From Flammeovirga kamogawensis (GTDB taxonomy: Bacteria > Bacteroidota > Bacteroidia > Cytophagales > Flammeovirgaceae), in the NCBI RefSeq assembly GCF_018736065.1, contig NZ_CP076128.1, forward strand, positions 1,054,001 to 1,118,000: a stretch of DNA of 64,000 nt. The letters are read 5' to 3'. The notes under the pieces are model-generated. The model searched no databases, was not told where the DNA came from, and saw only the letters and a list, made by a program, of their open reading frames with translations. Both the position numbers and the translations under genes were made by a program. Within the stretch, counting starts at the first letter, position 1; every line of letters starts with the position of its first letter. This document shows, one piece after another, positions 7,593 to 26,712 of the stretch.

Positions 7593-8024
7593 ATGTACAA
7601 AGAACTCATTCAAACAAAAAATTCAAAATCTATACTTCTCATCAGAATTATGGTAGGTATTGTTTTTCTATCAGAAGGAATACAAAAATTCTTATTTCCA
7701 GCAATTCGTGGGGTAGGAAGATTTGAAAAAATTGGCTTACCATTTCCTGAAACTTTAGGTAATTTAATTGGAGGTTTAGAAATAATTTGCGGGCTATTAA
7801 TTCTGCTTGGCTTGATGACTCGTTTAGGGAGCTTCTTTACTTTTATGATAATGCTCACAGCTTTGGCAACAACAAAATTAGCTATTTTACAAAATGATGG
7901 CTTTTGGGTAATGATGCATGCAAGTAGAACAGACTTTGCTATGCTATTGGGAAGTCTATTTTTAATAATTAACGGAGGTGGCTTATGGTCATTAGACCGT
8001 GTGAAAACAAAAAAGGTAAGTTGA
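7593..8024 (+). CDS. DoxX family membrane protein
   Basis: About 143 residues with four predicted membrane helices. The N-terminal phrase ILLIRIMVGIVFLSEGIQKFLFP and the following GRFEKIGLPFPETLGNLIGGLEIICGLLILLGLMTR are typical of DoxX/DoxD-like proteins. The family is associated with quinone or thiol redox chemistry in some bacteria, but a specific role here cannot be assigned. The ATG at 7593 is chosen; a TTG six bases upstream (7587) is in frame. It is divergent from the TonB receptor across about 150 bases. Confidence 0.85.
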   Translation: MYKELIQTKNSKSILLIRIMVGIVFLSEGIQKFLFPAIRGVGRFEKIGLPFPETLGNLIGGLEIICGLLILLGLMTRLGSFFTFMIMLTALATTKLAILQNDGFWVMMHASRTDFAMLLGSLFLIINGGGLWSLDRVKTKKVS

Positions 8025-8049
8025 TTTCAATTTCAACTTACCTTTTAAA

Positions 8050-10122
8050 TTATTTCTTCTTCGACTTACCTTGTGAGATATAAGCACTTACTTTACCACT
8101 TGCACGTTGCTTATCGATAGAAACTTTATTTTTATTTCTGCGGTTTTTATCCACTTTATCTTTATTCTTTTTCCTTTCATGAAAAGCTCCTTTAAAATTA
8201 GGATCTTCTTTACGTTTCTGACGGTCAATTTCCATTGCCATATCACGTATTTCATGTTGTGGAGCTTCTTGTTCTTCCACTTCCTCTGGCATTTCTAAAA
8301 CAGGAATTTCTTTATTAATAACTTCTTCAATTTTTAATAAATGATATTTCTCTGCTGGATTACAGAAAGTATAGGCAACACCTGTATTATTCGCTCTACC
8401 TGTTCTACCTACACGGTGAACATAATCGTGATACATTACCGGAACATCAAAGTTAACTACATGAGATACCATACTTACGTCAATACCTCTTGCAGCAACA
8501 TCTGTTGCTACCAAAACACGTACATTTCCTTCTTTAAAATCATCAATACTATTTATTCTAGCATTCTGACCTTTGTTGGCATGAATAACCCTTACTTCAC
8601 CCTCTGTATTTCTTTGTAAAAATGCAGCAACTCCATTTGCATGATCTTTCTTACGGACAAACACCATAATTCTTGATAATGAAGAATCGGTATTCATTAA
8701 ATAAGCAAGAAGGTGGAGTTTCGTCATAAAGTTAGGTACGAAATAAACAAACTGATCTACCATTTCTGCAGTAGTCGCTTGTGGAGTAATTTCAACTCTT
8801 TGAGGAAATTCTAAGAACTCTTCACTTAAACGAACAACGACATCTGGCATAGTTGCAGAGAACAAAAGGTTCTGTCGTTTTCTAGGAATAATTTCTAACA
8901 TCTGACGAATCTGTGGCATAAAACCCATGTCCATAATTCTATCAGCCTCATCCAGTACCATATATTTAATTGACTTAGTTTTCAATTTCCCTCTAGAATA
9001 AATATCCATTACTCTACCAGGTGTACCAACTAATAAATCAATTCCTTTTTCTACTTCCTCTATCTGTGTTTTTGGTCCAATACCACCATAAACTACCGCA
9101 TGTCTTAAACCAGTATATACTGCTAATTTTTCAACTTCTTTACCAACCTGAATAGCTAACTCTCTTGTTGGTACTAATATAAGCACCCTAGGATCATTCC
9201 CTTGAGCGTATTTAGCTTTAAATAATAGTGGTAATAAATAAGCAGCCGTTTTACCAGTACCTGTTTGGGCAATCCCAAATAAATCGTGTCCTGATAATAC
9301 AAGAGGAATAGCTTTATCTTGAATAGGTGTTGGTTCTGTATATCCAAGTTCATCACAAACGGTATATAATTGTTTGTTTAATTTGAATTTTCTGAAACCT
9401 AATCCCTCATCTTCTTTTCTTTTCTCTTCTAGTGCTGCAGCTTGTTCTTGTTCAGCTCCAGGTTTTTGAGGTAAAAATGTTAATTCAGGATCACCTCCTA
9501 AGTGATCTACATTATTAAATTCAACTAACTTAAACGCTCCAGTGTACTCATTATATTCCAAAGTAGTTACTCCTGTATTTTTAGGGGCAAAATTCTTCAT
9601 CTCATCAAAATCCATATCAAGAAGAAGACATAAGAATATTCGAATAGAGCGACTATGCATACAAATTAAAACATTACGTTCATTTTCGTTTTGCATTATA
9701 TTTTCTAACCCAACTGCCAATCGTTGTAAAACATCAAAGAGTGTTTCTCCATTCTTTGGAAAAGCATCAAAATTCCCTGCTTCCCATTCGTCTGAAATAC
9801 TCTGAACTGTTTTACCATCTACAGTAAAATCATCAATTGAATTACCTTCAAAATCACCATAATTCATTTCATCAAATTCAGGAATTATTTCATAATCTAA
9901 TCCTTTATCAATAAACCCTTTAGCTGTCTGATGTGTTCTTTTTAAAGAAGTAACATATAATTTATCGAATTTAAAGTCCTTGTAAGCATCGAATAATAAC
10001 TTTCCTTGCTTCTGACCAATTTCGTTTAAATCTGCATCAATCTTACGACCTTGTACAATTCTTTTCGTATTGTATGCCGTCTGACCATGACGAACTAAAT
10101 AAATTCTTTTTGAATTACTCAT
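8050..10122 (-). CDS. Fusion protein: histidine phosphatase (phosphoglycerate mutase-like) plus DEAD-box RNA helicase
   Basis: A single uninterrupted 690-codon frame encodes two enzymes. Residues 1-205 are a histidine-phosphatase domain with LVRHGQTAYNTKR (RHG at 11-13), the acidic Glu in EMNYGDFEG (about 85) and the second catalytic His in ICMHSRSIR (156). A charged linker (about 215-240) follows. Residues 241-600 are a complete DEAD-box core: Q motif PTPIQ, motif I AQTGTGKT (285-292), PTRELA, TPGR, DEAD (391-394), SAT, ATDVAARGIDV and HRVGRTGR. The last 60 residues are Lys/Arg-rich, as in RNA-binding tails. The helicase should remodel RNA using ATP; the phosphatase substrate is unknown. All catalytic residues of both halves appear intact. 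No stop or internal restart separates them. Confidence 0.9.
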   Translation of the reverse strand: MSNSKRIYLVRHGQTAYNTKRIVQGRKIDADLNEIGQKQGKLLFDAYKDFKFDKLYVTSLKRTHQTAKGFIDKGLDYEIIPEFDEMNYGDFEGNSIDDFTVDGKTVQSISDEWEAGNFDAFPKNGETLFDVLQRLAVGLENIMQNENERNVLICMHSRSIRIFLCLLLDMDFDEMKNFAPKNTGVTTLEYNEYTGAFKLVEFNNVDHLGGDPELTFLPQKPGAEQEQAAALEEKRKEDEGLGFRKFKLNKQLYTVCDELGYTEPTPIQDKAIPLVLSGHDLFGIAQTGTGKTAAYLLPLLFKAKYAQGNDPRVLILVPTRELAIQVGKEVEKLAVYTGLRHAVVYGGIGPKTQIEEVEKGIDLLVGTPGRVMDIYSRGKLKTKSIKYMVLDEADRIMDMGFMPQIRQMLEIIPRKRQNLLFSATMPDVVVRLSEEFLEFPQRVEITPQATTAEMVDQFVYFVPNFMTKLHLLAYLMNTDSSLSRIMVFVRKKDHANGVAAFLQRNTEGEVRVIHANKGQNARINSIDDFKEGNVRVLVATDVAARGIDVSMVSHVVNFDVPVMYHDYVHRVGRTGRANNTGVAYTFCNPAEKYHLLKIEEVINKEIPVLEMPEEVEEQEAPQHEIRDMAMEIDRQKRKEDPNFKGAFHERKKNKDKVDKNRRNKNKVSIDKQRASGKVSAYISQGKSKKK

Positions 10123-10290
10123 ATCTGATTTTGAATTAAGCTACAAAGCTAAGTACATTAAAAAAAAAGATATACGTTTTGGTCAATTATCTTTCAATTA
10201 TTTTAATAAAATGTAATTGTTAACGATTTATTACTACTTATGATAAGTAAAATGAAGTTTCTTATCTTTTTCATATTACTCAAACATCTC

Positions 10291-13103: not shown

Positions 13104-13448
13104 ATGATACGCGGGTTTATGCTGATCCTAACAATGCTAGCGTTAGGAACATTAATTAATGAAGCAACGGGAGTTCCAATACCAGGAAATGTAATTGGAA
13201 TGGTAATACTATTTTTATGTCTATATCTTAAAATTATTCCTTATCAATGGGTAAAAGATGCCGCAACTTCTTTAACTAAAAGAATGTCATTATTCTTTAT
13301 TCCTGCTGGTGTTGGCATGATGGAATACCTTGATGTATTACAGGAAAACTGGTTAATGATTTCTGTTACCATTGTAATTTCTATGTTTGCCGTTATGCTT
13401 TCTGCAGGTTATACAGGTCAGTTTTTAGGAAAAAAAGACACTGAATAA
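13104..13448 (+). CDS. lrgA: CidA/LrgA family membrane protein
   Basis: A 114-residue membrane protein with four predicted helices and the CidA/LrgA phrases INEATGVPIPGNVIGMVILFL and FFIPAGVGMMEY. The family is holin-like and, with LrgB, has been linked to murein hydrolase control, and in several organisms to pyruvate or glycolate transport. The stop overlaps the start of the next gene by one base, so the two are translationally coupled. Confidence 0.9.
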   Translation: MIRGFMLILTMLALGTLINEATGVPIPGNVIGMVILFLCLYLKIIPYQWVKDAATSLTKRMSLFFIPAGVGMMEYLDVLQENWLMISVTIVISMFAVMLSAGYTGQFLGKKDTE

Positions 13449-14152
13449 TGAAAGAACTATTACATCATCTTTTTGAAAGTGAAACGTTTGTTCTAGCAGC
13501 TACATTAGGGTTGTTCTTAATTTTTGAAGCAATTTATCAAAAAGTTAAAAGTCCAATACTAAACCCTGTTTTACTTACAATACTTACATTAATCGTTATT
13601 TTAAAAAGTACAAATGTTAGCTACCAGACTTACAAAACAAATGCTCATATGATACATTTTATGTTGGGACCTTCTGTAGTAGCTTTAGGGTATTTACTAT
13701 ACGAACAACTACACACAATTGGTAAAAATGCTTTTACTATTCTTGCTGCAACATTTACAGGAAGTATAATGGGAATTCTTTCTGTTATCCTAGTTGGTAA
13801 ATTGTTTGGAGCAGATGAATCGCTCATTATTTCAATGGCTCCAAAATCAGTAACAACACCAATTGCAATGGCTGTTTCATTCCAGAATGGAGGTATCCCC
13901 TCCCTTACTGCAGTTTTTGTGATTATTGTAGGAATTCTTGGTGCTACTGTAGGACCAATGGTGTTACATAAAGTAGGCATAACTAAACCAATCGGTAAAG
14001 GATTAGCAATGGGTACTTGTGCTCATGGTATTGGAACTGCGGCTGCTATACAAATGGGAATTATTGAAGGGGCAATTAGTGGTTTATCCATTGGATTAAT
14101 GGGTATTTTTACTGCACTACTTACGCCTTCTATCTTATCTATATTTTATTAG
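13448..14152 (+). CDS. lrgB: CidB/LrgB family membrane protein
   Basis: A 234-residue, very hydrophobic protein of normal LrgB length. Family motifs are MAPKSVTTPIAMAVS, GILGATVGP and GTCAHGIGTAAA. It works with the upstream LrgA-like subunit in the cytoplasmic membrane, either in cell-wall hydrolase control or in export/import of small organic acids. Which of these applies cannot be seen from sequence. A strong bidirectional terminator follows. Confidence 0.92.
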   Translation: MKELLHHLFESETFVLAATLGLFLIFEAIYQKVKSPILNPVLLTILTLIVILKSTNVSYQTYKTNAHMIHFMLGPSVVALGYLLYEQLHTIGKNAFTILAATFTGSIMGILSVILVGKLFGADESLIISMAPKSVTTPIAMAVSFQNGGIPSLTAVFVIIVGILGATVGPMVLHKVGITKPIGKGLAMGTCAHGIGTAAAIQMGIIEGAISGLSIGLMGIFTALLTPSILSIFY

Positions 14153-14212: not shown

Positions 14213-15403
14213 TTACATAAGACCAATAGAAGCTCCTACAAAAGTTTTATTGTGGTTGTATTTTACCCCAATCATTTCACCTCTACTCATCCTACAAAGA
14301 TTAACTATTAATTCAGGTGATTCCTCATTATCTGCCCATATAAACATCATTCTTACTTCTACCTTTACATCTCCACCGTCAGCAGCTTCAACAATAGGTT
14401 CGTAATTAATTTTTCTTTGCAGAATATAATTCCCTCTTTCTTCTTCAGCAATAGCATCTAAGTGTTTTTGCTCTAAATGAAAAACGACACCAGCTCCTGC
14501 AAACGAATACAATGGCTTTAGAACATAGTTCTCTAAATCCTTTGGGTAAGTAGTATAATCTGTCAAAAACTTTGTTTCTGGTACAAATTTACTTTCTAAA
14601 TAAGGCATTAAAGATTTACTTATTCTGAAGAACCAATTGGGATGGCCTGCCCATTCAACATTAACATCATCTGTTAATCTAAATTGAAGTTCTAAAGGTT
14701 CCCAGTTTTCTATTTCATCAAAAATTAGTCTATTATAAATTCTCTTTATTGGAGTTTTCTTACCGTTATTACTATAAAATAGATCTTTTCCTTCTTTAAT
14801 TATGTCCGTAATACAAACAGTTTCTATCCCGATAATTTCTTTTGTTGCAGCAAAATCAACTTTAGTATGTTGCTTATCAGGATAAATTTCTAAAAGAATT
14901 ACGTTTTCTGGAGCATGACCATTTAAAATTACCTTCTTCAATTTTTCGATATATTCCTGTTCTGAAACATCAAAAAATGGTGTTAATTTTTCATCTAAAT
15001 CATATGCTTGCTTATATGCTTCTTGCTTATAAATATTAAAAGCAAAAATAGATGGAAAACCTTGTAACTCTATCATTTGAGGCTCAAGTTCTCCCTTTTC
15101 ATTTTTACAAACAGCAAAATCTACAGCTAAAAAGTTAGTATGATCGTCTTCATTAGGAACTATACAATCTTTCGGAATCGCATCTTCAGTTATCTTTTTA
15201 AAGTCATCTCGCTTTAAAACAGTAACAACATCAGCACATGCTTCTTTTAATCTTGTTACAAATTCTGGCGGAAAGAAAATAGGTGTTTCAGCCATTCTGA
15301 AAGCCAATTCTTCACCAAATTTATCAGCAAAATACTTAGTAAGTGATTTATATTTATCGTCTGAGAAATTCTTGTTGAATTCTCCTCTTAAAGACTTGAT
15401 CAT
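14213..15403 (-). CDS. ATP-grasp-like ligase of unknown substrate (last gene of the leftward ligase operon)
   Basis: A 396-residue cytoplasmic protein. The second half has ATP-grasp character: NYVLKPLYSFAGAGVVF (292-308) resembles the Lys-Pro/Gly-rich phosphate loop, YILQRKI follows as the hinge strand, and VKVEVRMMFIW plus LCRMSRGE could supply acidic and Arg active-site residues. The N-terminal half contains FFPPEFV and QMIELQGFPSIFAFN, the latter typical of a substrate-binding region with an acidic residue. I cannot name the family with certainty. It is the fourth gene of an operon with a GATase, a GCS2-type ligase and another ATP-grasp enzyme. It most likely forms an amide or peptide bond. 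Confidence 0.7.
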   Translation of the reverse strand: MIKSLRGEFNKNFSDDKYKSLTKYFADKFGEELAFRMAETPIFFPPEFVTRLKEACADVVTVLKRDDFKKITEDAIPKDCIVPNEDDHTNFLAVDFAVCKNEKGELEPQMIELQGFPSIFAFNIYKQEAYKQAYDLDEKLTPFFDVSEQEYIEKLKKVILNGHAPENVILLEIYPDKQHTKVDFAATKEIIGIETVCITDIIKEGKDLFYSNNGKKTPIKRIYNRLIFDEIENWEPLELQFRLTDDVNVEWAGHPNWFFRISKSLMPYLESKFVPETKFLTDYTTYPKDLENYVLKPLYSFAGAGVVFHLEQKHLDAIAEEERGNYILQRKINYEPIVEAADGGDVKVEVRMMFIWADNEESPELIVNLCRMSRGEMIGVKYNHNKTFVGASIGLM

Positions 15404-15439
15404 ATCTACTATTAGTTATAACTAATTAAGTGGTTCTTT

Positions 15440-16237
15440 TTACTTAGACAATGCTTGAATTGCATACTGTAAAAAAGAAGGAATTATTGGTCTAAATGCC
15501 ATATTCAATCGACTTGGATCTTCTAAAATCTTCATCAATTTATTAAATTTATTTTCACCAAATTTTTCTATAATTCCCTTTTTCTGAGGATCTACACCAA
15601 AATAGGGAATTAATCCCTCTGCATCGGCTTCTGGATGGAATTGTGTTCCAAAAAACTCATCAGAAAATCTGATGGCCATCACAGCACGTTTATAATCTGT
15701 ATGAGGTCTAATCTTTTCCATACAAACTATTTTAGCACCAATTTTATCTAATTGTTCTTGAGTTACATTCAATAATTGATGATCTCTAGAATCAATTGCA
15801 TAAAAAGTATCTCCAAAAACAGATAAAAATGGGTCTTTTTTACCCTCTTCTGTTTTGTGTACTCTCATAGCACCAAAAGCTGTAGAATGCCTTTGAGAAA
15901 GCTGACCTAAACCGAAAAATCTACTTGCCATTTGGAAAGAATGACAAATAAAAAACATGTATTTTTTTCTTGAATTAGTTAGGTTATGCTCCCATAATTT
16001 TTGCAATAAATCGAAGTATCCTTGCTCCCAACCTTCCTCTTCTAAAGGATTTCCAGGTCCACCTGTTGATATATAAATATCAAATGATGTATCTGGTAAT
16101 TGATTTTCTCCTCTTAAATCAAAAATTTGATAATCAACTTCCTCCTTTACTTCTTCTAAGATATCTTTAATACAACGCATTCCTTCGTTAGGAACTTTGT
16201 TATACATATCAATCAATGCTAATCTTAACCGACCCAT
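15440..16237 (-). CDS. Class I glutamine amidotransferase-like protein
   Basis: A 265-residue protein with the class I GATase fold. It shows YISTGGPGNPLEEEGW (oxyanion region), FFICHSFQM with the nucleophile Cys98, and GTQFHPEADAEG with His201 and Glu203, so the catalytic triad is complete. Such domains hydrolyse glutamine to deliver ammonia, or act as gamma-glutamyl hydrolases. Here it has no fused synthetase and lies between a GCS2-type ligase (27 bases upstream) and an ATP-grasp-like gene (36 bases downstream). It could supply ammonia to one of them or cleave a gamma-glutamyl product; both are inference. Confidence 0.88.
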   Translation of the reverse strand: MGRLRLALIDMYNKVPNEGMRCIKDILEEVKEEVDYQIFDLRGENQLPDTSFDIYISTGGPGNPLEEEGWEQGYFDLLQKLWEHNLTNSRKKYMFFICHSFQMASRFFGLGQLSQRHSTAFGAMRVHKTEEGKKDPFLSVFGDTFYAIDSRDHQLLNVTQEQLDKIGAKIVCMEKIRPHTDYKRAVMAIRFSDEFFGTQFHPEADAEGLIPYFGVDPQKKGIIEKFGENKFNKLMKILEDPSRLNMAFRPIIPSFLQYAIQALSK

Positions 16238-16264
16238 TAAAAACTTTAAAAATGTTCTTTATAA

Positions 16265-17410
16265 TTACACACCCACACTAGGTATTGTTAAATTCCAAGG
16301 CAATTTAGTATCTAAGTCCTTATTTGTTTCTTGAACAATGTATTTTGCCACATCTTCAAGACTATTAGACTGTTTAAATATTTCTAATTGTCTTCTAGCT
16401 CCAGTTCCTTTTTCTAATAAAGCAGGAATTGTTTCTAGAACATCACGGCTACCAAGTTCATCTACAACATCATCTACAAAATCAAGAATTTCTAAGATAA
16501 GTTGTTTAGAGTCTACTTCTTCACGTTTACCAAAATCAATTAGTTTACCTTCCAAACCGTATCTTGCAGCTCTCCATTTATTCTCGTTTACTAATGCTCT
16601 TCTGTAAATCCTGAACGACATATTTTGTCTCATCAATTTATCTAGTTTACAAACAATTGCTTGAACTAAAGATGCAATAGCTAATGTTTCTTCAGTAGTC
16701 ATCTGCACATCACAGATTCTAAATTCTATTGTATTGTAGAAAGGATGCATACGGATATCCCACCATATTTTCTTCGCATTATCAATACAATTTGTAGTAG
16801 TTAGCATTTCTATGTACTCATCATACTCTGCTGCTGAGGCATAAAATTCAGGAATACCAGTTCTTGGAAATTTATCAAAAACTTTTGTTCTGTAAGACAT
16901 GTACCCTGTATTTCTACCTTCCCAGAAAGGTGAATTTGTAGAAAGTGCAAAAATATGAGGTAAGAAATATCTCGCCTGATTCATTAAGTGTAACGCTTGG
17001 TTACGGTTCTCTATACCTACATGAACGTGCATTCCAAAAATTAAATTTGATCTTGCAGCATCTTGTAGTTCATTAACAATTTGATTGTAACGAGGGTCAT
17101 CCGTCATTAATTGTTCTGTCCAAGAAGAAAATGGATGAGAACCAGCTGCAGCAATGTACTGATCTTGATCTCCTGCCATTTGAGCAGCCATGTTTCTAAG
17201 GCGAACTACATCTTTACGAGCTTCATCGATATTTTCACATATATGCGTTCCTACCTCAAGAACAGCTTTATGCATTTCAGGCTTTACATGCTCATGAAAA
17301 TACTTCTTATCTTGATCTAGGATTTCATATAAGTGAGCCTTTAGAGATAAGTCTTCCATACTTACAGTTTGGAATTCCTCCTCTATACCAATTGTAAACT
17401 TTTTGCTCAT
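16265..17410 (-). CDS. Carboxylate-amine ligase, YbdK/GCS2 type
   Basis: A 381-residue enzyme of the glutamate-cysteine ligase 2 (YbdK) family. Motifs are FTIGIEEEFQ (5-14) with the metal-binding acidic residues, FGMHVHVG, STNSPFWEGRNTGYMSYRT and WWDIRMHPFYNTIEFRICD. These are conserved in ATP-dependent carboxylate-amine ligases that join a carboxylate, often gamma-Glu, to an amine. The real substrate is unknown. It is the second gene of the leftward operon. A 15-bp hairpin lies in the 112-base gap upstream, so its expression may differ from that of the first gene. Confidence 0.9.
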   Translation of the reverse strand: MSKKFTIGIEEEFQTVSMEDLSLKAHLYEILDQDKKYFHEHVKPEMHKAVLEVGTHICENIDEARKDVVRLRNMAAQMAGDQDQYIAAAGSHPFSSWTEQLMTDDPRYNQIVNELQDAARSNLIFGMHVHVGIENRNQALHLMNQARYFLPHIFALSTNSPFWEGRNTGYMSYRTKVFDKFPRTGIPEFYASAAEYDEYIEMLTTTNCIDNAKKIWWDIRMHPFYNTIEFRICDVQMTTEETLAIASLVQAIVCKLDKLMRQNMSFRIYRRALVNENKWRAARYGLEGKLIDFGKREEVDSKQLILEILDFVDDVVDELGSRDVLETIPALLEKGTGARRQLEIFKQSNSLEDVAKYIVQETNKDLDTKLPWNLTIPSVGV

Positions 17411-17467
17411 AATAATTCAGTAGGTAAAAATAGGTTTTTAAAGATTATCAAGGGGGAAATAGTATAA

Positions 17468-17508
17468 TAAGAGTTGCTAAGTATAATGTAAAAACTTAGC
17501 AACTCTTA
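17468..17508 (-). terminator. Strong hairpin in the operon between two ligase genes (possible attenuator)
   Basis: A 15-bp perfect stem (17468-17482 with 17494-17508) with an 11-base loop is followed on the minus strand by a T-rich but interrupted tail. It may terminate part of the transcripts leaving the upstream ATP-grasp gene. Confidence 0.55.
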
Positions 17509-17522
17509 CTATTTATTAATCA

Positions 17523-18656
17523 CTAAGCTTTTTTCGCTCTTGTCGATGTTTTCTTAGCAGTTGTTGCCTTCTTTGCTGGGGCTTTTTTTGCTGGAGCCTT
17601 TTTAGCTGCGGTTGTTTTCTTTTCTGCAGCTGTAGTTTTCTTAGCAGCTGGCTTACGTGTAGCTGTTGCTTTCTTTGCTACAGGAGCTTTTTTAACAGCC
17701 TTTTTTAAAGATTGTTGAACGCCTTCTTGTACATAAGTACCCCAAGTTAAGTTATCTTGTCCTTCTACTTGAGCCTCTGCTCTTTCAATAGCAAATTTGG
17801 CAGCATTCTCAACGATCCAGTTAAAGTTTTCTTGTCCAACAGACTCTAAACCTGCATCTGGTGCTGGGTTACAGAAATCAATTGCATAAGGAACACCATC
17901 TCTGATTGCAAATTCTACTGTGTTAAAATCGTATCCTAAAGCATGATTTAATTTAAGAACATACTCCTCGATTGTTTTCAATAGTTTTGGATCAGTTGGT
18001 TTGTCCTGATCAACTACATAACGTAAGTGGTGAGGATTTTCTGGAGCATAAGGCATGATATGTACATACTTACCTCCTAAACAATAACAACGGAAATACT
18101 CAGTAAATTTAATTTCTTCCTGAAGCATCATAACTAAACGCTCAGTTTCAGCATGTTTTTCAAAAAGCTCATTAGAATCATTTACTTTATAAACACTTTT
18201 CCAACCTCCACCATCATGTGGTTTCATGTATGCAGGAAAGCCGATATAATCAAAAATACTATTCCAATCTAAAGGGTAAGCCAAGTTTGTGAAAGAATCT
18301 TGGTTTGTGTCATCTGGCCATTGGTTAGACGGTAATAAAACAGTCTTTGGCACAGGTACACCAACTTTTAATGCTAAAGCATTATTGAAGAATTTCTCAT
18401 CAGCACTCCACCAAAATGGATTGTTTATAACAGCTGTACCACAGATTGCTGCATTCTTTAAGAAGGCACGGTAAAAAGGTACATCCTGAGAAATACGGTC
18501 TATAATAACAGCATATTCAGTTGCTTTACCTTGGACTACTTTGTCGATAGAAACTGCTTCTGCAGAAATACCTTTAGGAGCAATCTCATTTACTTTATCA
18601 ATAAAAGCTTGAGGAAAACTACGCTCCTTACCAAAGAGGATACCAATTTTTTTCAT
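17523..18656 (-). CDS. ATP-grasp ligase with a histone-H1-like Lys/Ala-rich tail
   Basis: Residues 1-315 form an ATP-grasp enzyme of the RimK/D-Ala-D-Ala ligase type: ADEKFFNNALALKVGVPVPKT (85-105), YMKPHDGGGWKSVYKV (143-158) as the ATP loop, LQEEIKFTEYFRCY, and TVEFAIRDGVPYAIDFCNPAPD (246-267) with the metal-binding acidic and Asn residues. Residues 317-377 are an almost pure Lys/Ala/Thr/Pro tail with KKAPAKKA-type repeats, like bacterial histone-H1-like proteins. The tail could bind nucleic acid or polyanions; a role in substrate binding is also possible. First gene of the leftward operon, divergent from an esterase gene. Confidence 0.87.
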   Translation of the reverse strand: MKKIGILFGKERSFPQAFIDKVNEIAPKGISAEAVSIDKVVQGKATEYAVIIDRISQDVPFYRAFLKNAAICGTAVINNPFWWSADEKFFNNALALKVGVPVPKTVLLPSNQWPDDTNQDSFTNLAYPLDWNSIFDYIGFPAYMKPHDGGGWKSVYKVNDSNELFEKHAETERLVMMLQEEIKFTEYFRCYCLGGKYVHIMPYAPENPHHLRYVVDQDKPTDPKLLKTIEEYVLKLNHALGYDFNTVEFAIRDGVPYAIDFCNPAPDAGLESVGQENFNWIVENAAKFAIERAEAQVEGQDNLTWGTYVQEGVQQSLKKAVKKAPVAKKATATRKPAAKKTTAAEKKTTAAKKAPAKKAPAKKATTAKKTSTRAKKA

Positions 18657-18871
18657 GGAAATTATTTAAATTGAATGACTAGGTTATTGTTATAATGGGT
18701 GGTGTGGGTCACCAAATCGCAATAATGAATAATAGATTTATCATTAAAATGAATTCATCAATTATTCATAACGAGTGCAAAGCTACAAAAACAATTATTA
18801 ATCATTGTAAATTATTTATAAATTTTCTACAGTATTTTCATTTATTTGATGTATCATTGCAGTCGATTTAA

Positions 18872-18887
18872 GTTAGGGTACCCTAAC
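18872..18887. promoter_or_regulatory. Perfect 16-bp palindrome in the divergent promoter region (candidate operator)
   Basis: GTTAGGGTACCCTAAC is a perfect dyad in the 277-base region between the divergent ligase and esterase operons. A near-consensus -7 element, TATCATTG, lies at 18852-18859, which would place the palindrome just after the predicted start of rightward transcription. A looser 9-bp inverted repeat (18725-18733 with 18761-18769) lies nearer the leftward gene. Confidence 0.5.
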
Positions 18888-18933
18888 ACAGTGTATTAGA
18901 CCCCTTACTTGTTGTTTTCAAATCAAAAGTTTA

Positions 18934-20586
18934 ATGAATCACCATCAATCACAAAATAATGATGAAAATCAATATTTTGATCACATTGAACAAACCTATT
19001 ATTCCAATTTCTTAAGAAGAGACGTAGTTCTTTCTATTTTTCTTCCTCATAAAAAAGAGCCAACTCCTATACAGGCTGCATTTTTTAATGACGGACAAGA
19101 TATGGAGGCTGTTCAGATGTATTCAACATTAAATCATCTTTATGATCTTAAAGTAATAAACCCAATAGCGGTAATTGGAATACATTGTAGTGCTTTAAGA
19201 ATTGATGAATATGGCTGTATTTCTTCTGCCGACTATATGAACAGAGGAAATAAAGCACATGATTTTTCTCGATTTGTCATAGAAGAGCTTATTCCATATT
19301 GCAGAAAAAGTTTTAATATTTCTACATCTCCAAAAGATATAGCTTATGCTGGTTTTTCTTTAGGAGGGTTGTCTGCATTAGATATTTCTTGGCATTACCC
19401 ACAGTACTTTAACAAAATTGGGGTATTCTCTGGTTCATTCTGGTGGAGAGATAAACCGGCAGAGGGAGACTATAATGATGATATAGACCGCATTATGCAC
19501 AGAACAATACAAAATTCTTCTAAAAAAGAAGGATTAAAATTCTGGCTACAAACGGGTACTAAAGACGAAACTTCGGATAGGAATAATAATGGCATCATTG
19601 ATTCTATTGATGACACCCTTGATTTAATTAAAGAGCTTGATAAAAAAGGATATGACATCCATGACGACATTACTTATGTTGAAATAACTGATGGTGAACA
19701 TAACTTTTATACTTGGTCTGCTGTTTTACCTAATTTTTTAACGTGGGCTTTTGGTGGTAATGATTATGTCAAAACTGACCGTCAGCAATTAGCTGAAAGA
19801 AGACACAAAATGTGGTTTCATTTAGATGCTATGGCAGAAGCTCCAAATGTGGATATCATGCTTATCAGTGATAAATTTGATATGCCTCAATTGGGTAAAA
19901 AAAGAGCTGTTTGGGCATTGTTACCAAAAGGATGGGATTCTTTCTCGGAACGTTACCCAGTAATGTATTTACACGATGCTCAGAACCTTTTCAATAAAAA
20001 TGCTCCATTTGGTATGTGGGGTATTCATAAGGTAATGTCCGAAATGATTGATCAGGGTAAAAAGATGATTGTGATTGCTATTGAACATGGCGATGAAGAA
20101 CGTATAGAAGAGTTTGCTCCTTTTGCTGATGAAAATGGTACAGGAGGAAGCGGAAAAAGATATATTAATTTTATTGTTGATACTTTAGTTCCTTACATAA
20201 ACAGGAACTTCCCTTCTAAACAAGATAGGGAAAATACAGGTATTGGCGGAAGCTCTATGGGCGGCTTGGTAAGCTTGTACGCGGGCTTATATAGACCAGA
20301 AGCATTTGGGAAATACATGATTTTCTCCCCATCATTGTGGTATTCTAGTAAAATATTTGCTTTAGCCAAGAGGGTTACCCCATTCTTGAAATCTATGATC
20401 TATTTTTACGGCGGAGGAAAAGAAAGTGAAACGCTAATAGGTGAAATTGAGGAGCTCATTGAAATTTTAAAAGATAGAGGCTTTGAAGATCATCACCTTC
20501 CTTTAAAAATAAATCCTGAAGCAAACCATTCGGAAGCTGTTTGGGGACAAGAATTTGAAGAAGCCATGAATACACTCTTTTATTAA
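18934..20586 (+). CDS. Tandem double-domain esterase (enterochelin-esterase/esterase-D fold, two copies)
   Basis: A 550-residue cytoplasmic protein with no signal peptide, made of two alpha/beta-hydrolase domains of the putative-esterase (PF00756-like) type. Domain one (about 20-280) has AYAGFSLGGLSA with Ser142 and GEHNFY with His256. Domain two (about 300-550) has GIGGSSMGGLVSLYAG with Ser441 and ANHSEAV with His532. Both nucleophile elbows look intact. Such enzymes cleave esters of siderophores, thioesters or acyl groups; the substrate here is unknown. First gene of the rightward operon, 32 bases before the aminopeptidase. Confidence 0.87.
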   Translation: MNHHQSQNNDENQYFDHIEQTYYSNFLRRDVVLSIFLPHKKEPTPIQAAFFNDGQDMEAVQMYSTLNHLYDLKVINPIAVIGIHCSALRIDEYGCISSADYMNRGNKAHDFSRFVIEELIPYCRKSFNISTSPKDIAYAGFSLGGLSALDISWHYPQYFNKIGVFSGSFWWRDKPAEGDYNDDIDRIMHRTIQNSSKKEGLKFWLQTGTKDETSDRNNNGIIDSIDDTLDLIKELDKKGYDIHDDITYVEITDGEHNFYTWSAVLPNFLTWAFGGNDYVKTDRQQLAERRHKMWFHLDAMAEAPNVDIMLISDKFDMPQLGKKRAVWALLPKGWDSFSERYPVMYLHDAQNLFNKNAPFGMWGIHKVMSEMIDQGKKMIVIAIEHGDEERIEEFAPFADENGTGGSGKRYINFIVDTLVPYINRNFPSKQDRENTGIGGSSMGGLVSLYAGLYRPEAFGKYMIFSPSLWYSSKIFALAKRVTPFLKSMIYFYGGGKESETLIGEIEELIEILKDRGFEDHHLPLKINPEANHSEAVWGQEFEEAMNTLFY

Positions 20587-20618
20587 CCACAAGAAATACT
20601 ACATAAACCATATACATA

Positions 20619-22061
20619 ATGTTAACCAATTTATTAATTGATAATACTGAATCTTGGGAAATTCCTTCATTGGTAATTTACACCGAGTCTACTTGGGAAA
20701 AACGTCTTGAAAGAGCTGCTCAAAAATGGAATATTTCTGTGCCTATCTTAAAAAATGATTTTCTAGCAAAAGCGGGAGAATCAATTGTTTTAAGAAATAA
20801 TGATAAAAAAGTAACATTATTGGGTATTGGTGATTCAACCGCTTTTAAAGTAATTGAAGACGCTGTTAGAAAACATGTTTTTGCCAATAGAGATAAAGTT
20901 GGTAAATCATATACTTTAAATTTAAAACATTTAGGTGATCATTTAGAAAATGTCATCTCTCCTATTATATCTGGTGTATTATTAGGACATTATCAACTAA
21001 AAGGAATACCTACTCCTGTTGATATTCACCTAATTCTTCCAAAAGAAAATAGAGCAAAACATATTCTTCTTATAGAAGAAGCTAAAAAGGTAGCCGAAGC
21101 TAAATTATGGGCGATGTACCTTGTAGATACTCCTTCTAATATTATTGATCCTCAAGGATTTGCTGATGAAGTTGAAGCAAAGTCTAATGAATTTGGGTTT
21201 GATGCAACCACTTTTAGAAGTAGAGAAGGTTTAAAAACACTTGGATTACACGCTGTTCTTGCTGTAAATGCAGGCAGTAAAAACGAACCTTCCTTTTCTA
21301 TTTTAGAATACACACCTAAAAAACCTGTCGCATCAATTGCATTTGTGGGTAAAGGTGTAACTTTCGACACAGGAGGAATCTCTATGAAGGGTTCACAAAA
21401 TATGCATTGGATGAAATGTGATATGGGTGGTGCTGCTGCAGTAGCTGGAGCTATTGCTGCAATTGCTGCAATGCGTTTACCAATTGCTGTCACTGGTTTT
21501 ATTCCTGCAACAGATAACATGGTTGATGGTGCTTCTGTAAAACCAGGTGATATCATTCAAAGTCACTCTGGAAAAACAATTGAAGTTATTGATACCGATG
21601 CTGAAGGTAGATTATGTTTAGCTGATGGTGTCTCTTTTGCATGTAAAATGAAAAACTTTGATCATGTAATTGATATTGCAACGCTAACAGGTTCTTCTGT
21701 TATGACTTTAGGTTATGAAGCTGGTGCAATGTTAAGTAACAATATTGAGACTGCTCAACTTTTAACTGAAGCAAGTATCTCTACAGATGAGAAAATATGG
21801 CAATTACCTTTATGGGATGTTTACAATAAAGGCATACAATCTGATGTGGCTGATGTGAAAAATTATCCTGGTAACCCTGCTGCAGGTGCTATACATGCTG
21901 CTAAATTTATAGAAGCATTTGTTCCAGAAAATACAAATTGGGCTCACCTAGATATTGCCGGAGTAGCATTTGCTGCAAATGGCTTTGGAAAAGATAGAAA
22001 TGCAACTGGTTTTGGTGTTCATTTATTATTAGAATTCGCCAAAATTATTGCTAATCAATAA
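20619..22061 (+). CDS. M17 leucyl aminopeptidase
   Basis: A 480-residue metallo-aminopeptidase of the M17 family. An N-terminal variable domain (about 1-160) precedes the catalytic domain with FVGKGVTFDTGGISMKGSQNM (Lys and Asp metal/catalytic residues), MKCDMGGAAAV, and the signature DTDAEGRLCLADGV. It normally forms hexamers with two metal ions and releases N-terminal residues from peptides. Placement among ATP-grasp ligases and esterases suggests trimming or salvage of a specific peptide-like product rather than general turnover; this is inference. A 158-base gap with an inverted repeat follows. Confidence 0.93.
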   Translation: MLTNLLIDNTESWEIPSLVIYTESTWEKRLERAAQKWNISVPILKNDFLAKAGESIVLRNNDKKVTLLGIGDSTAFKVIEDAVRKHVFANRDKVGKSYTLNLKHLGDHLENVISPIISGVLLGHYQLKGIPTPVDIHLILPKENRAKHILLIEEAKKVAEAKLWAMYLVDTPSNIIDPQGFADEVEAKSNEFGFDATTFRSREGLKTLGLHAVLAVNAGSKNEPSFSILEYTPKKPVASIAFVGKGVTFDTGGISMKGSQNMHWMKCDMGGAAAVAGAIAAIAAMRLPIAVTGFIPATDNMVDGASVKPGDIIQSHSGKTIEVIDTDAEGRLCLADGVSFACKMKNFDHVIDIATLTGSSVMTLGYEAGAMLSNNIETAQLLTEASISTDEKIWQLPLWDVYNKGIQSDVADVKNYPGNPAAGAIHAAKFIEAFVPENTNWAHLDIAGVAFAANGFGKDRNATGFGVHLLLEFAKIIANQ

Positions 22062-22115
22062 TACAATTACCCTTTCCTCAAGTTTTAATTGAGGTATATA
22101 AATAATCAATCCAAT

Positions 22116-22194
22116 GTATGTTTGGAAGAAAATTCTTTTTGATTTCAACTTTTTAAGAGGTGGAATTCAACTTTAATAAACCTTCCAAACATAC
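22116..22194 (+). repeat. 13-bp inverted repeat before the third ATP-grasp gene
   Basis: GTATGTTTGGAAG (22116-22128) and its exact complement CTTCCAAACATAC (22182-22194) flank 53 bases in the untranslated gap of the operon. A small hairpin CCTCAA/TTGAGG (22076-22094) precedes it. The long stem could form in mRNA and affect processing or translation of the next gene. Confidence 0.6.
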
Positions 22195-22219
22195 TTATTT
22201 AAACCTATTTTATAATACA

Positions 22220-23440
22220 ATGAGTCATCAAAGACCTTTATCGATTCTGTGTGTTTCTTGTTATTTCAAAGGTGAAGATTTCCTTATCGGAGCAAAAGAA
22301 ACTGGTGCAAAAGTAACTTTACTTACTGTTAAGGATTTAGAACATCACGCTTGGCCAAAAGATAGTATTGATGAGATGATATTTAGTGGACAATCTGCAA
22401 CTGATTGGAATTACGAACACGTTATTAAAGGATTGGCTTACAAATTTAGAGAAGAACCATTTGATATTATTGTTGCTTTAGATGATTTTGACGTTGAAAA
22501 AGCGGCTTATCTAAGAGAGCATTTCAGAACTCCTGGAATGGGACAAACAACTGTAAGACATTTTAGAGATAAGCTTGGTATGAGAATGAAAGCTAAGGAC
22601 CTTGGGTTACCTATACCTAAGTTTACAGGTCTTTTCTCTAATGAAATGATTCACCATTTTCTAGATAATGTAGAAGGACCTTGGTTAATTAAACCTCGCT
22701 CTGAAGCATCAGCTTCTGGAATTCAAAAAGTACATACTCATCAAGAATTTTGGGATGCAGTAAATGGACTTGGAGATGAAAGAGATGATTTTCTTGCTGA
22801 AGCATTCCGCCCAGGAGATGTATTGCATGTAGATAGTTTATCATTAAATGGTAAAATAATATTCTCACGTGCACACAGGTACATGAATACTCCTATGGAA
22901 GTTGCTCACGATGGTGGTGTTTTCAGAACTCATACAATGGAACATGATGCAAAAGAAACTGAAGAAGTATTGGCTTTAAATGAAAAGTTATTGAGTGGCT
23001 TTGGTTTAAAACATGGAGCATCTCATTCTGAATACATCAAAGACCACGCTACCGGAAAATACATCTTTTTAGAGACTGCTTCTAGAGTTGGTGGAGCAAA
23101 TATCGCTGAAATGTTAGAGGCATCATCAAATGTGAACCTTTGGAAAGAATGGGCTAAAATTGAGTATGCTGTAGCAACAAATACTCCATACAATTTACCC
23201 GTTTTAAGAAATGACTATTCTGGAATCATTGTTTCATTAGCAAAACAAGAATGGCCAGAATTATCACATTATAACGATGCTGAGGTTGTTTGGAAGATGA
23301 ATAAGCAATACCACGCTGGTGTTATTGTATCTTCTGAAAAATTAGAAAGAGTTACAGAACTACTTGAACAATATGCTTCTCGTTTTTATGAAGACTTTTT
23401 TGCAACGCTACCTTCTACAAGAGATAGACCTGCTACTTAA
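22220..23440 (+). CDS. ATP-grasp ligase (carbamoyl-phosphate-synthase/biotin-carboxylase-like)
   Basis: A 406-residue enzyme from the ATG at 22220 (MSHQRPLSILCVSCYF); a GTG at 22160 would add 20 unconserved-looking residues. The N-terminal pre-ATP-grasp domain has FDIIVALDDFDVEKAAYLREHF. The ATP-grasp region shows GMRMKAKDLGLPIPKF, GPWLIKPRSEASASGIQKV with the ATP-binding Lys and Gly-rich loop, FLAEAFRPGDVLHVDSLS, SHSEYI and FLETASRVGGANIAEM with Glu, Arg and Asn of the metal/phosphate site. It likely activates a carboxylate as acyl phosphate for amide formation. Third ATP-grasp enzyme of the locus. Confidence 0.88.
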   Translation: MSHQRPLSILCVSCYFKGEDFLIGAKETGAKVTLLTVKDLEHHAWPKDSIDEMIFSGQSATDWNYEHVIKGLAYKFREEPFDIIVALDDFDVEKAAYLREHFRTPGMGQTTVRHFRDKLGMRMKAKDLGLPIPKFTGLFSNEMIHHFLDNVEGPWLIKPRSEASASGIQKVHTHQEFWDAVNGLGDERDDFLAEAFRPGDVLHVDSLSLNGKIIFSRAHRYMNTPMEVAHDGGVFRTHTMEHDAKETEEVLALNEKLLSGFGLKHGASHSEYIKDHATGKYIFLETASRVGGANIAEMLEASSNVNLWKEWAKIEYAVATNTPYNLPVLRNDYSGIIVSLAKQEWPELSHYNDAEVVWKMNKQYHAGVIVSSEKLERVTELLEQYASRFYEDFFATLPSTRDRPAT

Positions 23441-23472
23441 AAAAATACAAATAAACTTTATTACATACTACA

Positions 23473-24207
23473 ATGAGAAGAGATATTGGAGGGTGGCATA
23501 GTCCACGTTTAAATAAATGGATGGATATTGTAAGTTATGGTCACTACGGACCTGCATTACTTTTATTCCCTACTGCTGCGGCAGATTTCTTAGAATACGA
23601 AAGATTTCAATTAATTGATGCTTTAAGACCATTTATCGATGCTGGTAAACTTAAAGTATATTCTATTAATAGTATTAATACTGAGTCTTGGATGAACAAC
23701 CAGATGAATCCTAGACATAAAGCAGAAAGACAAGAAGCGTTTAATCATTACATTTATGATGAAGTGGTTCCTTTTATTTTTAATGATTGTGGAGGACACA
23801 CCCCTATAATTTTATCTGGAGCTTCTTTTGGTGCTTTACATTCAGCTAATATTTTCTTTAAGCGACCTGATTTATTCTGGGGCTTAATAGCAATGAGTGG
23901 GGATTATCAATTACATTCTTATACTAAAGGGTACTCTGATGATCTTACTTTCTTTAATTCACCTTTAAGTTACTTACCAGGGTGGAATGATCATTATATC
24001 ATTGATCAATTAAAGCAAAAAGAAATTGTTTTGGCTACTGGACAGGGAAATCATGAAAAGCCTTCCGCTGCGATAGAATTATCTCATGTTTTAAATGCTA
24101 AAGGTATACATAACCATTTAGAAGTTTGGGGGCATGATATTCATCATGACTGGCCTACTTGGCGTCAAATGTTACCTCATTTCTTAGGAAATTGGTTTAT
24201 TCATTAA
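23473..24207 (+). CDS. Small esterase of the alpha/beta-hydrolase superfamily
   Basis: A 244-residue single-domain enzyme of the same putative-esterase group as the first gene of this operon. It begins GGWHSPRLNKWMDIVSYGHYGPALLLFPT and has ILSGASFGALHSAN with nucleophile Ser118 and WGHDIHHDWPTW near the C-terminus with the likely catalytic His. It has no signal peptide. It lies 32 bases after the ATP-grasp gene and ends at a bidirectional terminator, so it is the last gene of the rightward operon. Substrate unknown. Confidence 0.85.
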   Translation: MRRDIGGWHSPRLNKWMDIVSYGHYGPALLLFPTAAADFLEYERFQLIDALRPFIDAGKLKVYSINSINTESWMNNQMNPRHKAERQEAFNHYIYDEVVPFIFNDCGGHTPIILSGASFGALHSANIFFKRPDLFWGLIAMSGDYQLHSYTKGYSDDLTFFNSPLSYLPGWNDHYIIDQLKQKEIVLATGQGNHEKPSAAIELSHVLNAKGIHNHLEVWGHDIHHDWPTWRQMLPHFLGNWFIH

Positions 24208-24211: not shown

Positions 24212-24252
24212 AAAAAAGCCTATCAAATTTAAGTTTGATAGGCTTTTTTTTA
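24212..24252. terminator. Bidirectional terminator
   Basis: A stem of at least 12 bp (24216-24227 with 24234-24245) is flanked by A-run and T-run and lies between the convergent esterase and caspase-like genes. Confidence 0.92.
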
Positions 24253-26457
24253 GTTAACTTCCTCTCCGTAAAAGGTATGCTTTTCTAAATACCAATTACT
24301 TACAGAATTTGTTTTCCTAGTATCTTCTTCTTCCAAGAGAGACTCTAAAGAAGCATCTTCTCCACTTCCTCTAGACTTCACACCTGTCTGATTAAAAATT
24401 GAAGTGTCTATAATAGCACTTGTTGTACTTAACATCAATATATTATCAGTAGTGAAAGGAGGAGAAACAGCTAACTCACCTGCTTCAACTAACTTAATGA
24501 TATTTTTATAATCTCCTTTTTCTTGAGCAATTTGCTCTGTATTATTCTCTACAGATGCATTTCTATCTGGAAACAGCAGCTGCATACTCCCATCATTCTC
24601 TAATAAAAAGATATAAATATATCGATCTTCATTATTCCAATTATCATATAATTTTTCATCTAAATAAAGAGAAACTGTATATACTTCACCTTCTACCAAT
24701 GCTCCCTGAGAAATAATTTCTCCATTAGATTCTTTCATTAAACCTAATTTATATGGGAAACAAGCGTTATTAGGAGGAACATCCATTGTTAGCCAACTCT
24801 TCACTTCTCCTAAACGAAGTGCATAATCAGATAATAAAACAACTTTTTCTTTACTTAACCAATCTGTAATTTCTGGTAATGGGCTATGATCATCTTTATT
24901 TGTTGCAGATGTTCTTAACCAAGCATATTCTAAAGTATTTGACTGATTGTATTTACCAATTAATTGATAATCACATCTAGTGTCTGTACCTACTTTTTCA
25001 ACTTTAGCTTGACCAATCAAAGCACCTTCAATTTCTTTATAAACAGCTTCTGATGGAGGTATTTCGATAAATATTTTTCCAGTCACTTTCTTACTCTTTA
25101 TATATTTATCTATGTCTGATGAAGAAGGTACATTACTAGAAAAGTTATCTTTATTACCATGATTTAAAACTACCCATTGACCTGAGTCTTCTTTCTTTAT
25201 TAAAAGATCAATTTTAGTATCTAACGGATCATCAGCTAAAAGACGCTTATTTCTATAGTATTTTGATAATTCTTTTACCTTTTCTAAATCTGTAGAATTT
25301 ATACCTGCAGCACTGTAATTTACCTTAAGCCTATTTTTATTATAAGGAGCCCATTTTGTCACTTTTAAAAGGTCACCTTCTGATAACTCCTTATCACCTT
25401 CTATAATTTTGCAATAACTCCCATTAACACCAAAGAGTGAAGTTACTTCTACTACAATCCCTTTTTCACCATGTGATAATTGTGTACCTGGAACAACGCC
25501 AAGAGCACTTCCTCCATCTAAAGTGATTTTGTATTTATTTTCCGCATCTACTACCCCAATTTGTACACCAACAGAAGGATCTGCAACTCCTCCAAATAAT
25601 GGAGCTTTAATTCTTTCTACAGAGGCTTCAATAACTGGATCCTGTCTTGGAACAGCATTATATAAAATAATAGAATTTACTCTTTTAAAAACATCTTCTG
25701 CAGACTCGTTTACATTACTTGCTTGCATTGCTTTAATCAAAGCATAAGTAAACACGCCATGAGATTGCCCTCTTGAATCTTTATATTCTTTCGCAAATTG
25801 ATAATCTTGAGCTGCTGATATTACAAGTGCTCCTCTTTCAGCAGCCGATTGTTTTTTCTCGAATTTAGTATCAATATCTAAATCAGATACTGGAACATAT
25901 CTAGACTTAAGTTCATTAGTATTGATTTTTCCTCTTGTACCAGATCCACTAAAACAATTATCGAAAATGACGGTTAACTCACCATTTTTATCAAGTATCT
26001 GGTTTAAGAGATCATTTATTTCAACATCTAAAAGATATTCATTCGTTCTTAATACATCAGAAGGTACAATTGCTTCATTTTTCTTATCTAACTCATAAAA
26101 TTGAGAATTGGTAATTTGAGCACCATGTCCTGCATAATAAATAAAAATTTGATCTCCAGGATTTGTTGATTTAATCAATTGATTAAACCCTTTAAGAATT
26201 GCTTTTTTAGTTGTGTTTTTTTCACCTGCAAGCAGCTTCATATTTTTCTCATTAAAGCCATACTTAGCTCTAAGAATGTCATAAACTGCTGATGCATCGT
26301 TTACTGCTCCATCTAAATTTTGCCATTCTGCAAAGCGTTCGGTCTCAGAATCATAATATTTATCTATACCGATAAGAAGTGCTCTTTTTTCAGAGGCTAT
26401 TGATAGTAGAGATAGAGATAAAAAACAACAAAGTAAAATATGTAATTTAGGTTTCAT
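24250..26457 (-). CDS. Secreted caspase-like peptidase (C14) with C-terminal DUF4384-like region
   Basis: The ATG at 26457 is chosen because it gives a signal peptide (MKPKLHILLCCFLSLSLLSIA); an upstream in-frame ATG at 26544 would add 29 residues and bury it. The caspase p20-like domain follows: KRALLIGIDKYYD, IFIYYAGHGAQ with catalytic His111, and VIFDNCFSGSG with Cys168. The middle and C-terminal parts contain VNYSAAG, a PEGA/DUF4384-like segment with YIYIFLLENDGSMQLLFP, and KIIKLVEAGELAVSPPF. It probably acts in the periplasm or at the envelope as an Arg/Lys-specific cysteine peptidase of orthocaspase type; specificity is inference. Confidence 0.85.
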   Translation of the reverse strand: MKPKLHILLCCFLSLSLLSIASEKRALLIGIDKYYDSETERFAEWQNLDGAVNDASAVYDILRAKYGFNEKNMKLLAGEKNTTKKAILKGFNQLIKSTNPGDQIFIYYAGHGAQITNSQFYELDKKNEAIVPSDVLRTNEYLLDVEINDLLNQILDKNGELTVIFDNCFSGSGTRGKINTNELKSRYVPVSDLDIDTKFEKKQSAAERGALVISAAQDYQFAKEYKDSRGQSHGVFTYALIKAMQASNVNESAEDVFKRVNSIILYNAVPRQDPVIEASVERIKAPLFGGVADPSVGVQIGVVDAENKYKITLDGGSALGVVPGTQLSHGEKGIVVEVTSLFGVNGSYCKIIEGDKELSEGDLLKVTKWAPYNKNRLKVNYSAAGINSTDLEKVKELSKYYRNKRLLADDPLDTKIDLLIKKEDSGQWVVLNHGNKDNFSSNVPSSSDIDKYIKSKKVTGKIFIEIPPSEAVYKEIEGALIGQAKVEKVGTDTRCDYQLIGKYNQSNTLEYAWLRTSATNKDDHSPLPEITDWLSKEKVVLLSDYALRLGEVKSWLTMDVPPNNACFPYKLGLMKESNGEIISQGALVEGEVYTVSLYLDEKLYDNWNNEDRYIYIFLLENDGSMQLLFPDRNASVENNTEQIAQEKGDYKNIIKLVEAGELAVSPPFTTDNILMLSTTSAIIDTSIFNQTGVKSRGSGEDASLESLLEEEDTRKTNSVSNWYLEKHTFYGEEVN

Positions 26458-26712
26458 TCTTATTTTAAATTGACTTAATTGTATTATGTGTAGAAAACAG
26501 TAGTATAAATATAACATAATTATACTTGATGAAGGAAAATACATTCGTTAATTCTATATGCAGAATTTAGAATAACTGATATCATCTTTGTATATACTTT
26601 ATATTTACAACTAAAAACTATACCGTATTAACTCACAAATGGTATATAAATTGCCTTATTTTTTAATTATTACATTATATAGGTGACATTAATTTCATCT
26701 AAAACAAAAAGT

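Follow-up and report, generated by a model that had tools for sequence, protein, structure and literature searches.

What is made by a block of neighbouring genes that combines ATP-dependent amide ligases with hydrolases and esterases? The question arises from eight open reading frames (ORFs) at positions 14213-24207 of a 64,000-nt stretch of Flammeovirga kamogawensis DNA (assembly GCF_018736065.1, NZ_CP076128.1:1,054,001-1,118,000, forward strand), which as a whole is referred to here as the window. Four genes are read leftward and encode an ATP-grasp ligase (A), a GCS2-type ligase (B), a class I glutamine amidotransferase (GATase)-fold protein (C), and a ligase of glutathione synthetase (GSS) fold (D); four are read rightward and encode a double esterase (E), an M17 aminopeptidase-type protein (F), a further ATP-grasp ligase (G), and a small esterase (H). 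A preliminary description of this DNA had proposed that these two divergent halves make and trim one peptide-like metabolite without a nonribosomal peptide synthetase (NRPS). The eight ORFs, their strands, and their division around a 277-bp gap were confirmed, as were the assignments to ATP-grasp (A, D, and G, weakly), GCS2, GATase, esterase, and M17 families and the basic tail reported on A. The idea of a single pathway of amide ligases and hydrolases gained strong support from synteny, from co-occurrence in 296 genomes, and from the presence or absence of the block. We place slightly better than even odds (about 0.55) on an NRPS-free route to a small peptide-like amide, gamma-glutamyl or other, organized by the logic of glutathione synthesis, in which a gamma-glutamyl ligase is followed by a GSS-fold ligase. 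This reading draws on the pairing of glutathione-type folds in B and D, the relatives of D, the third ligase A, the hydrolase C or an M29-type one, and the esterases E and H.

Conservation of the gene neighbourhood

Named bacterial genomes were scanned with A, which returned at least 586 encoding stretches; the best 80 were kept, and the counts below describe these loci and do not extend to occurrence elsewhere. By record title 79 of them are from Bacteroidota and one (L081) is from an uncultured bacterium. No plasmid copy of A was matched at 1e-5. B was linked to A in 72 of the 80 loci, E in 67, H in 56, C in 53, D in 48, and F and G in 3 each, with some of the misses falling at contig ends. 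Among the 55 well-flanked loci, in which the sequence extends 3 kb or more upstream of A and 4.5 kb or more downstream, the counts were 54 for B, 50 for E, 41 for C, 38 for D, 41 for H (relatives about 30-37% identical, upstream of A), and 3 each for F and G. Exactly the same arrangement, E on the minus strand followed by H, A, B, C, and D on the plus strand within 6 kb of A, was found in 32 of the 55, and twelve carried E, A, and B only (E- A+ B+). F and G are linked in two congeneric loci (L096 and L097) and in L127, from the same class but another order, where all eight genes run the same way, in the order E F G H A B C D; G without F was seen in L130. The eight-gene set is real, yet its widespread core is made of six families (E, H, and A-D), with F and G as an accessory pair. 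The view of all eight as a unit thus holds for this core and not for F and G, which are linked in 3/80 loci. Other families recurring in at least eight loci appeared by eye, with no family search run, to be antisense frames or local Pedobacter-type synteny.

Co-occurrence was measured in 296 genomes drawn from Bacteroidota and searched with models of A, B, C, and D. Before counting, ten genomes were removed because their matches were weak or partial (for A, G268; for D, G104; for C, G106, G114, G181, G220, G267, G294, G321, and G329), and 16 with a lower-scoring GCS2 protein were tallied separately as b. A was present in 108 genomes, high-scoring B in 87, C in 70, and D in 92. Every one of the 87 high-scoring B genomes also has D, and A, B, and D occur together in 84. 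All four proteins were found in 50 genomes, A, B, and D without C in 34, A, C, and D without B in 4, and B, C, and D in 1; the remaining combinations were A and C (8), A and C with a lower-scoring GCS2 protein (7), A only (4), A and D only (1), B and D only (2), and a lower-scoring GCS2 protein only (9). A and D thus co-occur in 89 of the 296 genomes, about 30%. In G100, G133, and G284, A, B, and D lie on different contigs or hundreds of kb apart (more than 200 kb on the single contig of G100), so linkage alone is not enough to explain the pattern. Fisher p values were 3e-52 for A-D, 2e-47 for A-B, 1e-69 for B-D, and 1e-18 for B-C; these take no account of shared ancestry and serve only as a guide. 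The distance matrices of A, B, C, and D correlate across 52 loci (r 0.755-0.935, null maximum 0.338), a value that includes species history. Conserved co-occurrence across Bacteroidota, which the preliminary description had set against a scattering of the homologues, is what was found, in gene order as well as in the pairing of B with D.

Eight congeners (G001-G008) were searched with A, which was present in G002 and G003 only. Models of B and D gave zero matches in the six congeners without A; of the eight genes, the genome-wide search of these six covered A, B, and D, with no positive control inside them, both models matching the window's genome. In G007 and G008 the flanks of the block in the window, OmpA-TPR-LrgB on one side and caspase-hydrolase on the other, are colinear, and LrgB is separated from the caspase-family gene by 467 and 540 bp, respectively, compared with about 10.1 kb in G000, G002, and G003. 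When the eight proteins were compared by tblastn with the 8 kb read in these two genomes, none was matched. G007 and G008 therefore carry a clean empty site, with the block absent and its flanks adjoining. The two flanks are tens of kb apart in G001 and G006 and on different contigs in G004 and G005.

Families and folds of the ligases and hydrolases

The ATP-grasp matches of A, D, and G are weak and none reaches a curated Pfam or NCBIfam cutoff, so these proteins fall outside the families of glutathione synthesis, RimK, R2K, glutathionylspermidine (GSP) synthetase, and PF14403 as curated. A scored 34.4 bits (1.4e-08) against the NCBIfam model TIGR00768 (rimK_fam), with a cutoff of 143.4, and resembles RimK in fold alone; for the R2K clade it scored 21.6 bits against a cutoff of 26.2 (PF18299) and 17.1 against 26.3 (PF14243). 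Its sequence profile found no relative among solved structures at 0.01. The predicted structure of A has a mean predicted local distance difference test score (pLDDT) of 74, and Foldseek matched it to D-Ala-D-Ala ligase (3r23, 2.0e-14), to LysX/ArgX (5k2m_A, 2.1e-13), and to the RimK-domain structure 5i47. LysX/ArgX had the highest target template modeling score (TM-score), 0.73, among the matches listed.

The C-terminal tail of A, mostly below pLDDT 50 in the model, is basic and rich in Lys, Ala, and Thr, and similar tails occur in many relatives, variable in length and with no fixed motif evident by eye. In the 74 loci that extend 4.5 kb or more downstream, a tail was scored as at least 20 residues after an NLTWG-like motif with at least 15% Lys. 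A tail was present in 43 loci with both C and D, 4 with one of them, and 7 with neither; A lacked a tail in 5 loci with C and D and 15 with neither. As a marker of loci with C or D the tail is partial, with 5/48 C+D loci untailed and 7 tailed loci lacking both genes. The tail might bind a polyanionic partner or itself be an acceptor. Across L016-L108 tails recur in separate lineages and are missing from most loci with only E, A, and B, many of them from Chitinophagaceae.

B matches PF04107 (GCS2) at 3.4e-57 and passes the YbdK-type NCBIfam model PRK13515 (509.2 bits, cutoff 371), and it aligns with the solved YbdK-type structures 1tt4 (2.3e-47) and 1r8g (9.1e-46). Residues E10-E12, H128, H130, and G132 are invariant across 18 aligned sequences. 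Against the glutamate-cysteine ligase model NF010043, B scored 333.9 bits, under the cutoff of 409. D gave an AlphaFold2 (AF2) model with a mean pLDDT of 90.2, which Foldseek matched to human GSS (9.1e-15), yeast GSS (1.2e-14), YgiC (1.3e-12), Cp1B (2.9e-12), and glutathionylspermidine synthetase (GspS, 1.8e-11), at 11-15% identity and query TM-scores of about 0.5-0.6. No glutathione synthetase sequence family in Pfam or NCBIfam matched D at E 0.01; PF03738, of the GSP synthetase/YgiC type, gave 16.2 bits against a cutoff of 29.3 with agreement in fold, and neither PF14403 nor PF04174 was matched at E 0.01. G matches an L-amino acid ligase, with structure 4wd3 found at 5.1e-18 in a sequence search of the Protein Data Bank (PDB).

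Some loci depart from this set of ligases. L129-L132 and L139 have A and C without D, and in three of them a PF14403-like ligase of 451-483 aa lies between A and C (L129:8575-9930, L130:7642-9057, and L131:8021-9472), with the L130 protein above the PF14403 cutoff and those of L129 and L131 below it. In L129 and L130, the two tested, a further PF00756 esterase follows C. A profile comparison of D with the PF14403-like protein, made from shallow alignments and without the L134 row (a non-homologous ORF), gave a probability of 1.2 and did not show homology. In L148 a single open frame (7636-10239, +) encodes a sodium:solute symporter domain followed by D, a fusion hinting that the substrate of D can be taken up in that lineage. 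L149 has a symporter-like ORF just upstream of the D ORF.

C matches PF00117 (GATase) at 6.9e-07 with an intact Cys98-His201-Glu203 triad, and C98, Q102, H201, and E203 are invariant in 31 sequences. In L120, L150, L151, and L152 the usual place of C, between B and D, is taken by a gene of 339-342 aa. Three of these four were tested and match Peptidase_M29 in Pfam (2.1e-17, 4.7e-15, and 2.4e-14); the one compared with solved structures found aminopeptidase AmpS at 3.7e-05. A model built from the four genes was run on the 296 genomes, and close relatives (E <1e-150) were found in six, of which four had supplied the model and G302 and G260 were independent finds. Five lie between B and D (G111, G147, G302, G306, and G322) and the one in G260 lies elsewhere; all six genomes have A, B, and D and lack C. 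Another 81 genomes match the model more weakly, as general M29 relatives. The position of the M29-like gene suggests that C shares its type of job with a peptidase and acts hydrolytically, on an intermediate or by-product, rather than as an ammonia source.

E matches PF00756 at 8.5e-48 in two stretches, has two Ser nucleophile elbows (GFSLGG and GGSSMGG), and scored below cutoff against models of enterochelin esterase (9.7e-29) and S-formylglutathione hydrolase (5e-08, cutoff 281.7). Its relatives are mostly 235-305 aa long, with lengths of 550, 553, and 520 aa in L096, L097, and L104. H matches PF00756 at 1.8e-05 and F matches PF00883 (Peptidase_M17) at 4.1e-105.

Proposed pathway and its alternatives

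In the reading we prefer, the pathway would be ribosome-independent and cytosolic, a location suggested by the lack of any signal peptide seen by eye. ATP-dependent ligases would join amino-acid-like units and hydrolases would edit the product. Judged by its family, B would activate the gamma-carboxylate of glutamate and join it to an amine, D would join the carboxylate of this intermediate to a second amine (an amino acid or polyamine), and A would add another residue. A residue such as the gamma-glutamyl group would be removed by C or, in some lineages, by an M29-type aminopeptidase, and one residue may be a removable group. E and H would cleave an ester, and in the window F and G would provide extra trimming and one more ligation. 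A more specific version is possible though on balance doubtful: a phylum-wide cytosolic metabolite with glutathione-like architecture (gamma-Glu, a residue, and an amine or polyamine), which B and D would build and A would extend, and from which C or the M29 enzyme would remove the glutamate.

Several points weigh against the proposed pathway. We infer all substrates, the order of steps, and the product; A and D lie below the thresholds of curated families, and fold is not decisive for substrate. Some genomes lack B (4 with A, C, and D) or C (34 with A, B, and D), and 15 have A and C without D, so the ligase chain is not fixed. Among named models, C scores best against glutamine amidotransferases (PRK07567, 3.6e-11), at a level far under cutoff. 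Of the 34 genomes with A, B, and D but no C, 28 also lack the close M29 family, and in L118 and L119 no peptidase lies between A-B-D genes. E and H have no obvious ester substrate.

Four other explanations were weighed. C could be a true glutaminase supplying ammonia to B or D, with a peptide amide as product, perhaps an osmolyte like N-acetylglutaminylglutamine amide (NAGGN); its triad with the C+4 Gln, its best named models, and its three ligase neighbours fit this, and we consider it unlikely, as 34 genomes have A, B, and D without C, five of them with the M29-like gene in its slot, and as the profile of C is closest among solved structures to the acyltransferase MetA (5e-05) and then to an uncharacterized protein (5.6e-05). 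The NAGGN pathway is defined by an asparagine-synthase-like class II GATase and an ATP-grasp/GNAT ligase, neither of which was found among the eight proteins, to which this comparison was confined. Of the two GATase roles raised in the preliminary description, bond cutting is thus favoured and ammonia supply is disfavoured. An antioxidant pathway, with B making a gamma-glutamylcysteine-like dipeptide and D completing a thiol tripeptide, would account for the pairing of GCS2 and GSS folds, for D in all 87 B genomes, and for the scores of B to the glutamate-cysteine ligase model and of E to S-formylglutathione hydrolase; both scores are below their cutoffs, that of E far below, and none of the glutathione synthetase sequence families in Pfam matches D at E 0.01, leaving this rather improbable.

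Protein modification is also conceivable, with A as a RimK-like glutamate ligase acting on its own Lys-rich tail or on another protein and with C, F, and the M29 enzyme removing the addition. The RimK/LysX-like fold of A and the tail in 47/52 loci having C and/or D are in its favour, and we give it little credence given the variable, motif-free tail and its uneven distribution among loci. The LysW model TIGR01206 is unmatched in the window's genome (it matches 4/14 control genomes), and the A-E gap contains no small precursor-type ORF conserved among the window, L096, and L097, its 58-codon ORF not being kept. A precursor gene of this kind would be expected in a graspetide (RiPP) cluster; the comparison covered the A-E gap, and a precursor encoded further away is still conceivable. 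That the genes are chance neighbours with unrelated housekeeping roles, as the few loci linking F and G and the absence of B, C, or D from some genomes might suggest, is already contradicted by conserved order, co-occurrence (A-D, B-D, and B-C), and absence of the block, and we regard it as extremely improbable.

If the proposed amide pathway is correct, its product would be a common bacterial metabolite and not a rare natural product, as about 30% of the sampled Bacteroidota carry A and D. The contrast between presence and absence within one genus makes the product findable by comparative metabolomics. The block would also be a source of new amide-forming enzymes and a test of whether one pathway step can be filled by either a GATase-fold protein or an M29 peptidase.

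Gene layout and relation to known systems

Coordinates of the block are collected in Table 1. All gaps inside it other than that between A and E are shorter than 120 bp. A strict Bacteroidota -33/-7 motif was not found in the A-E gap, and Rfam at gathering threshold and a tRNA scan gave zero matches in the window. GC content is 0.31-0.37 per block gene and 0.31-0.34 in two flanking genes, and base composition gives no clear signature of foreign origin.

Table 1. Genes and intergenic region of the block (window positions)
Feature	Position	Strand	Basis
D, glutathione-synthetase/glutathionylspermidine-synthetase-fold acid-amine ligase, 396 aa	14213..15403	-	predicted fold
C, class I GATase-fold protein, 265 aa, possibly amide/gamma-glutamyl hydrolase	15440..16237	-	PF00117
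B, GCS2/YbdK-type carboxylate-amine ligase, 381 aa	16265..17410	-	PF04107, PRK13515
A, RimK/LysX-like ATP-grasp ligase, 377 aa, disordered Lys/Ala/Thr-rich C-terminal tail	17523..18656	-	
A-E divergent intergenic region, 277 bp	18657..18933	.	sequence
E, double PF00756 esterase, 550 aa	18934..20586	+	PF00756
F, M17 leucyl aminopeptidase-type protein, 480 aa, accessory	20619..22061	+	PF00883
G, L-amino-acid-ligase-like ATP-grasp, 426 aa, accessory	22160..23440	+	PDB 4wd3
H, small PF00756-like esterase, 244 aa	23473..24207	+	PF00756

An LrgA/LrgB holin-like pair (13104-14152, +) adjoins the block, and the empty site is recognized by the distance between this pair and the caspase gene. This caspase-domain gene (24250-26544, -; PF00656, 7.3e-25) has 5 to 14 matches per genome in each of the eight congeneric genomes. 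Further away, the gene at 8050-10122 (-) encodes 690 aa in which a histidine phosphatase domain (PF00300, 2.9e-44) is joined to a DEAD-box helicase (5.7e-48).

The proposed pathway resembles glutathione biosynthesis by GCS2-type GshA and eukaryotic-type glutathione synthetase in having the two folds in series as B and D, and differs in that neither protein has sequence membership there and in its extra RimK-like ligase, hydrolase, and esterases. The LysW/LysX amino-group carrier route to lysine and arginine shares the fold of A, seen in LysX/ArgX 5k2m, and lacks its carrier LysW here. Escherichia coli YgiC/YjfC and GspS share the fold of D, and a KPLFSFAGAGV-like motif of D compares with KPIFSREGANV; D differs in having no amidase domain and in a sequence profile match that reaches only E 0.043. 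In PMC12568646, YgiC and YjfC are reported as peptide-spermidine ligases, and Cp1B of the fungal E-64 pathway as a GSS-fold ligase that joins epoxysuccinate to amino acids in an NRPS-free pseudopeptide. The E-64 pathway is thus alike in using a GSS-fold ligase without an NRPS (PMC12568646), and it differs in its partner enzymes and organisms, with Cp1B 13% identical to D.

Titles and abstract beginnings found in the literature name no product or function for this gene set, and the preliminary description likewise named none. Its closest parallel is in predicted ATP-grasp/GCS2 amidoligase operons, which Iyer, Aravind and co-workers reportedly described in 2009 and for which small peptides are the predicted products. 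In these operons PF14403, a circularly permuted ATP-grasp of type 2, is said to occur near genes for GCS2, alpha/beta hydrolase, class II GATase-like, and M20 peptidase proteins. By this description the mixture of GCS2, ATP-grasp, alpha/beta hydrolase, GATase, and peptidase genes is alike, B with E and H again places a GCS2 ligase and alpha/beta hydrolases in one neighbourhood, and L129-L131 hold a PF14403-like ligase. In contrast, D here is outside PF14403 and PF04174, the GATase is of class I, the peptidases are of M17 and M29 type, and A is RimK/LysX-like. Predicted amidoligase clusters are already known as a type, and the present gene set is a variant of them.

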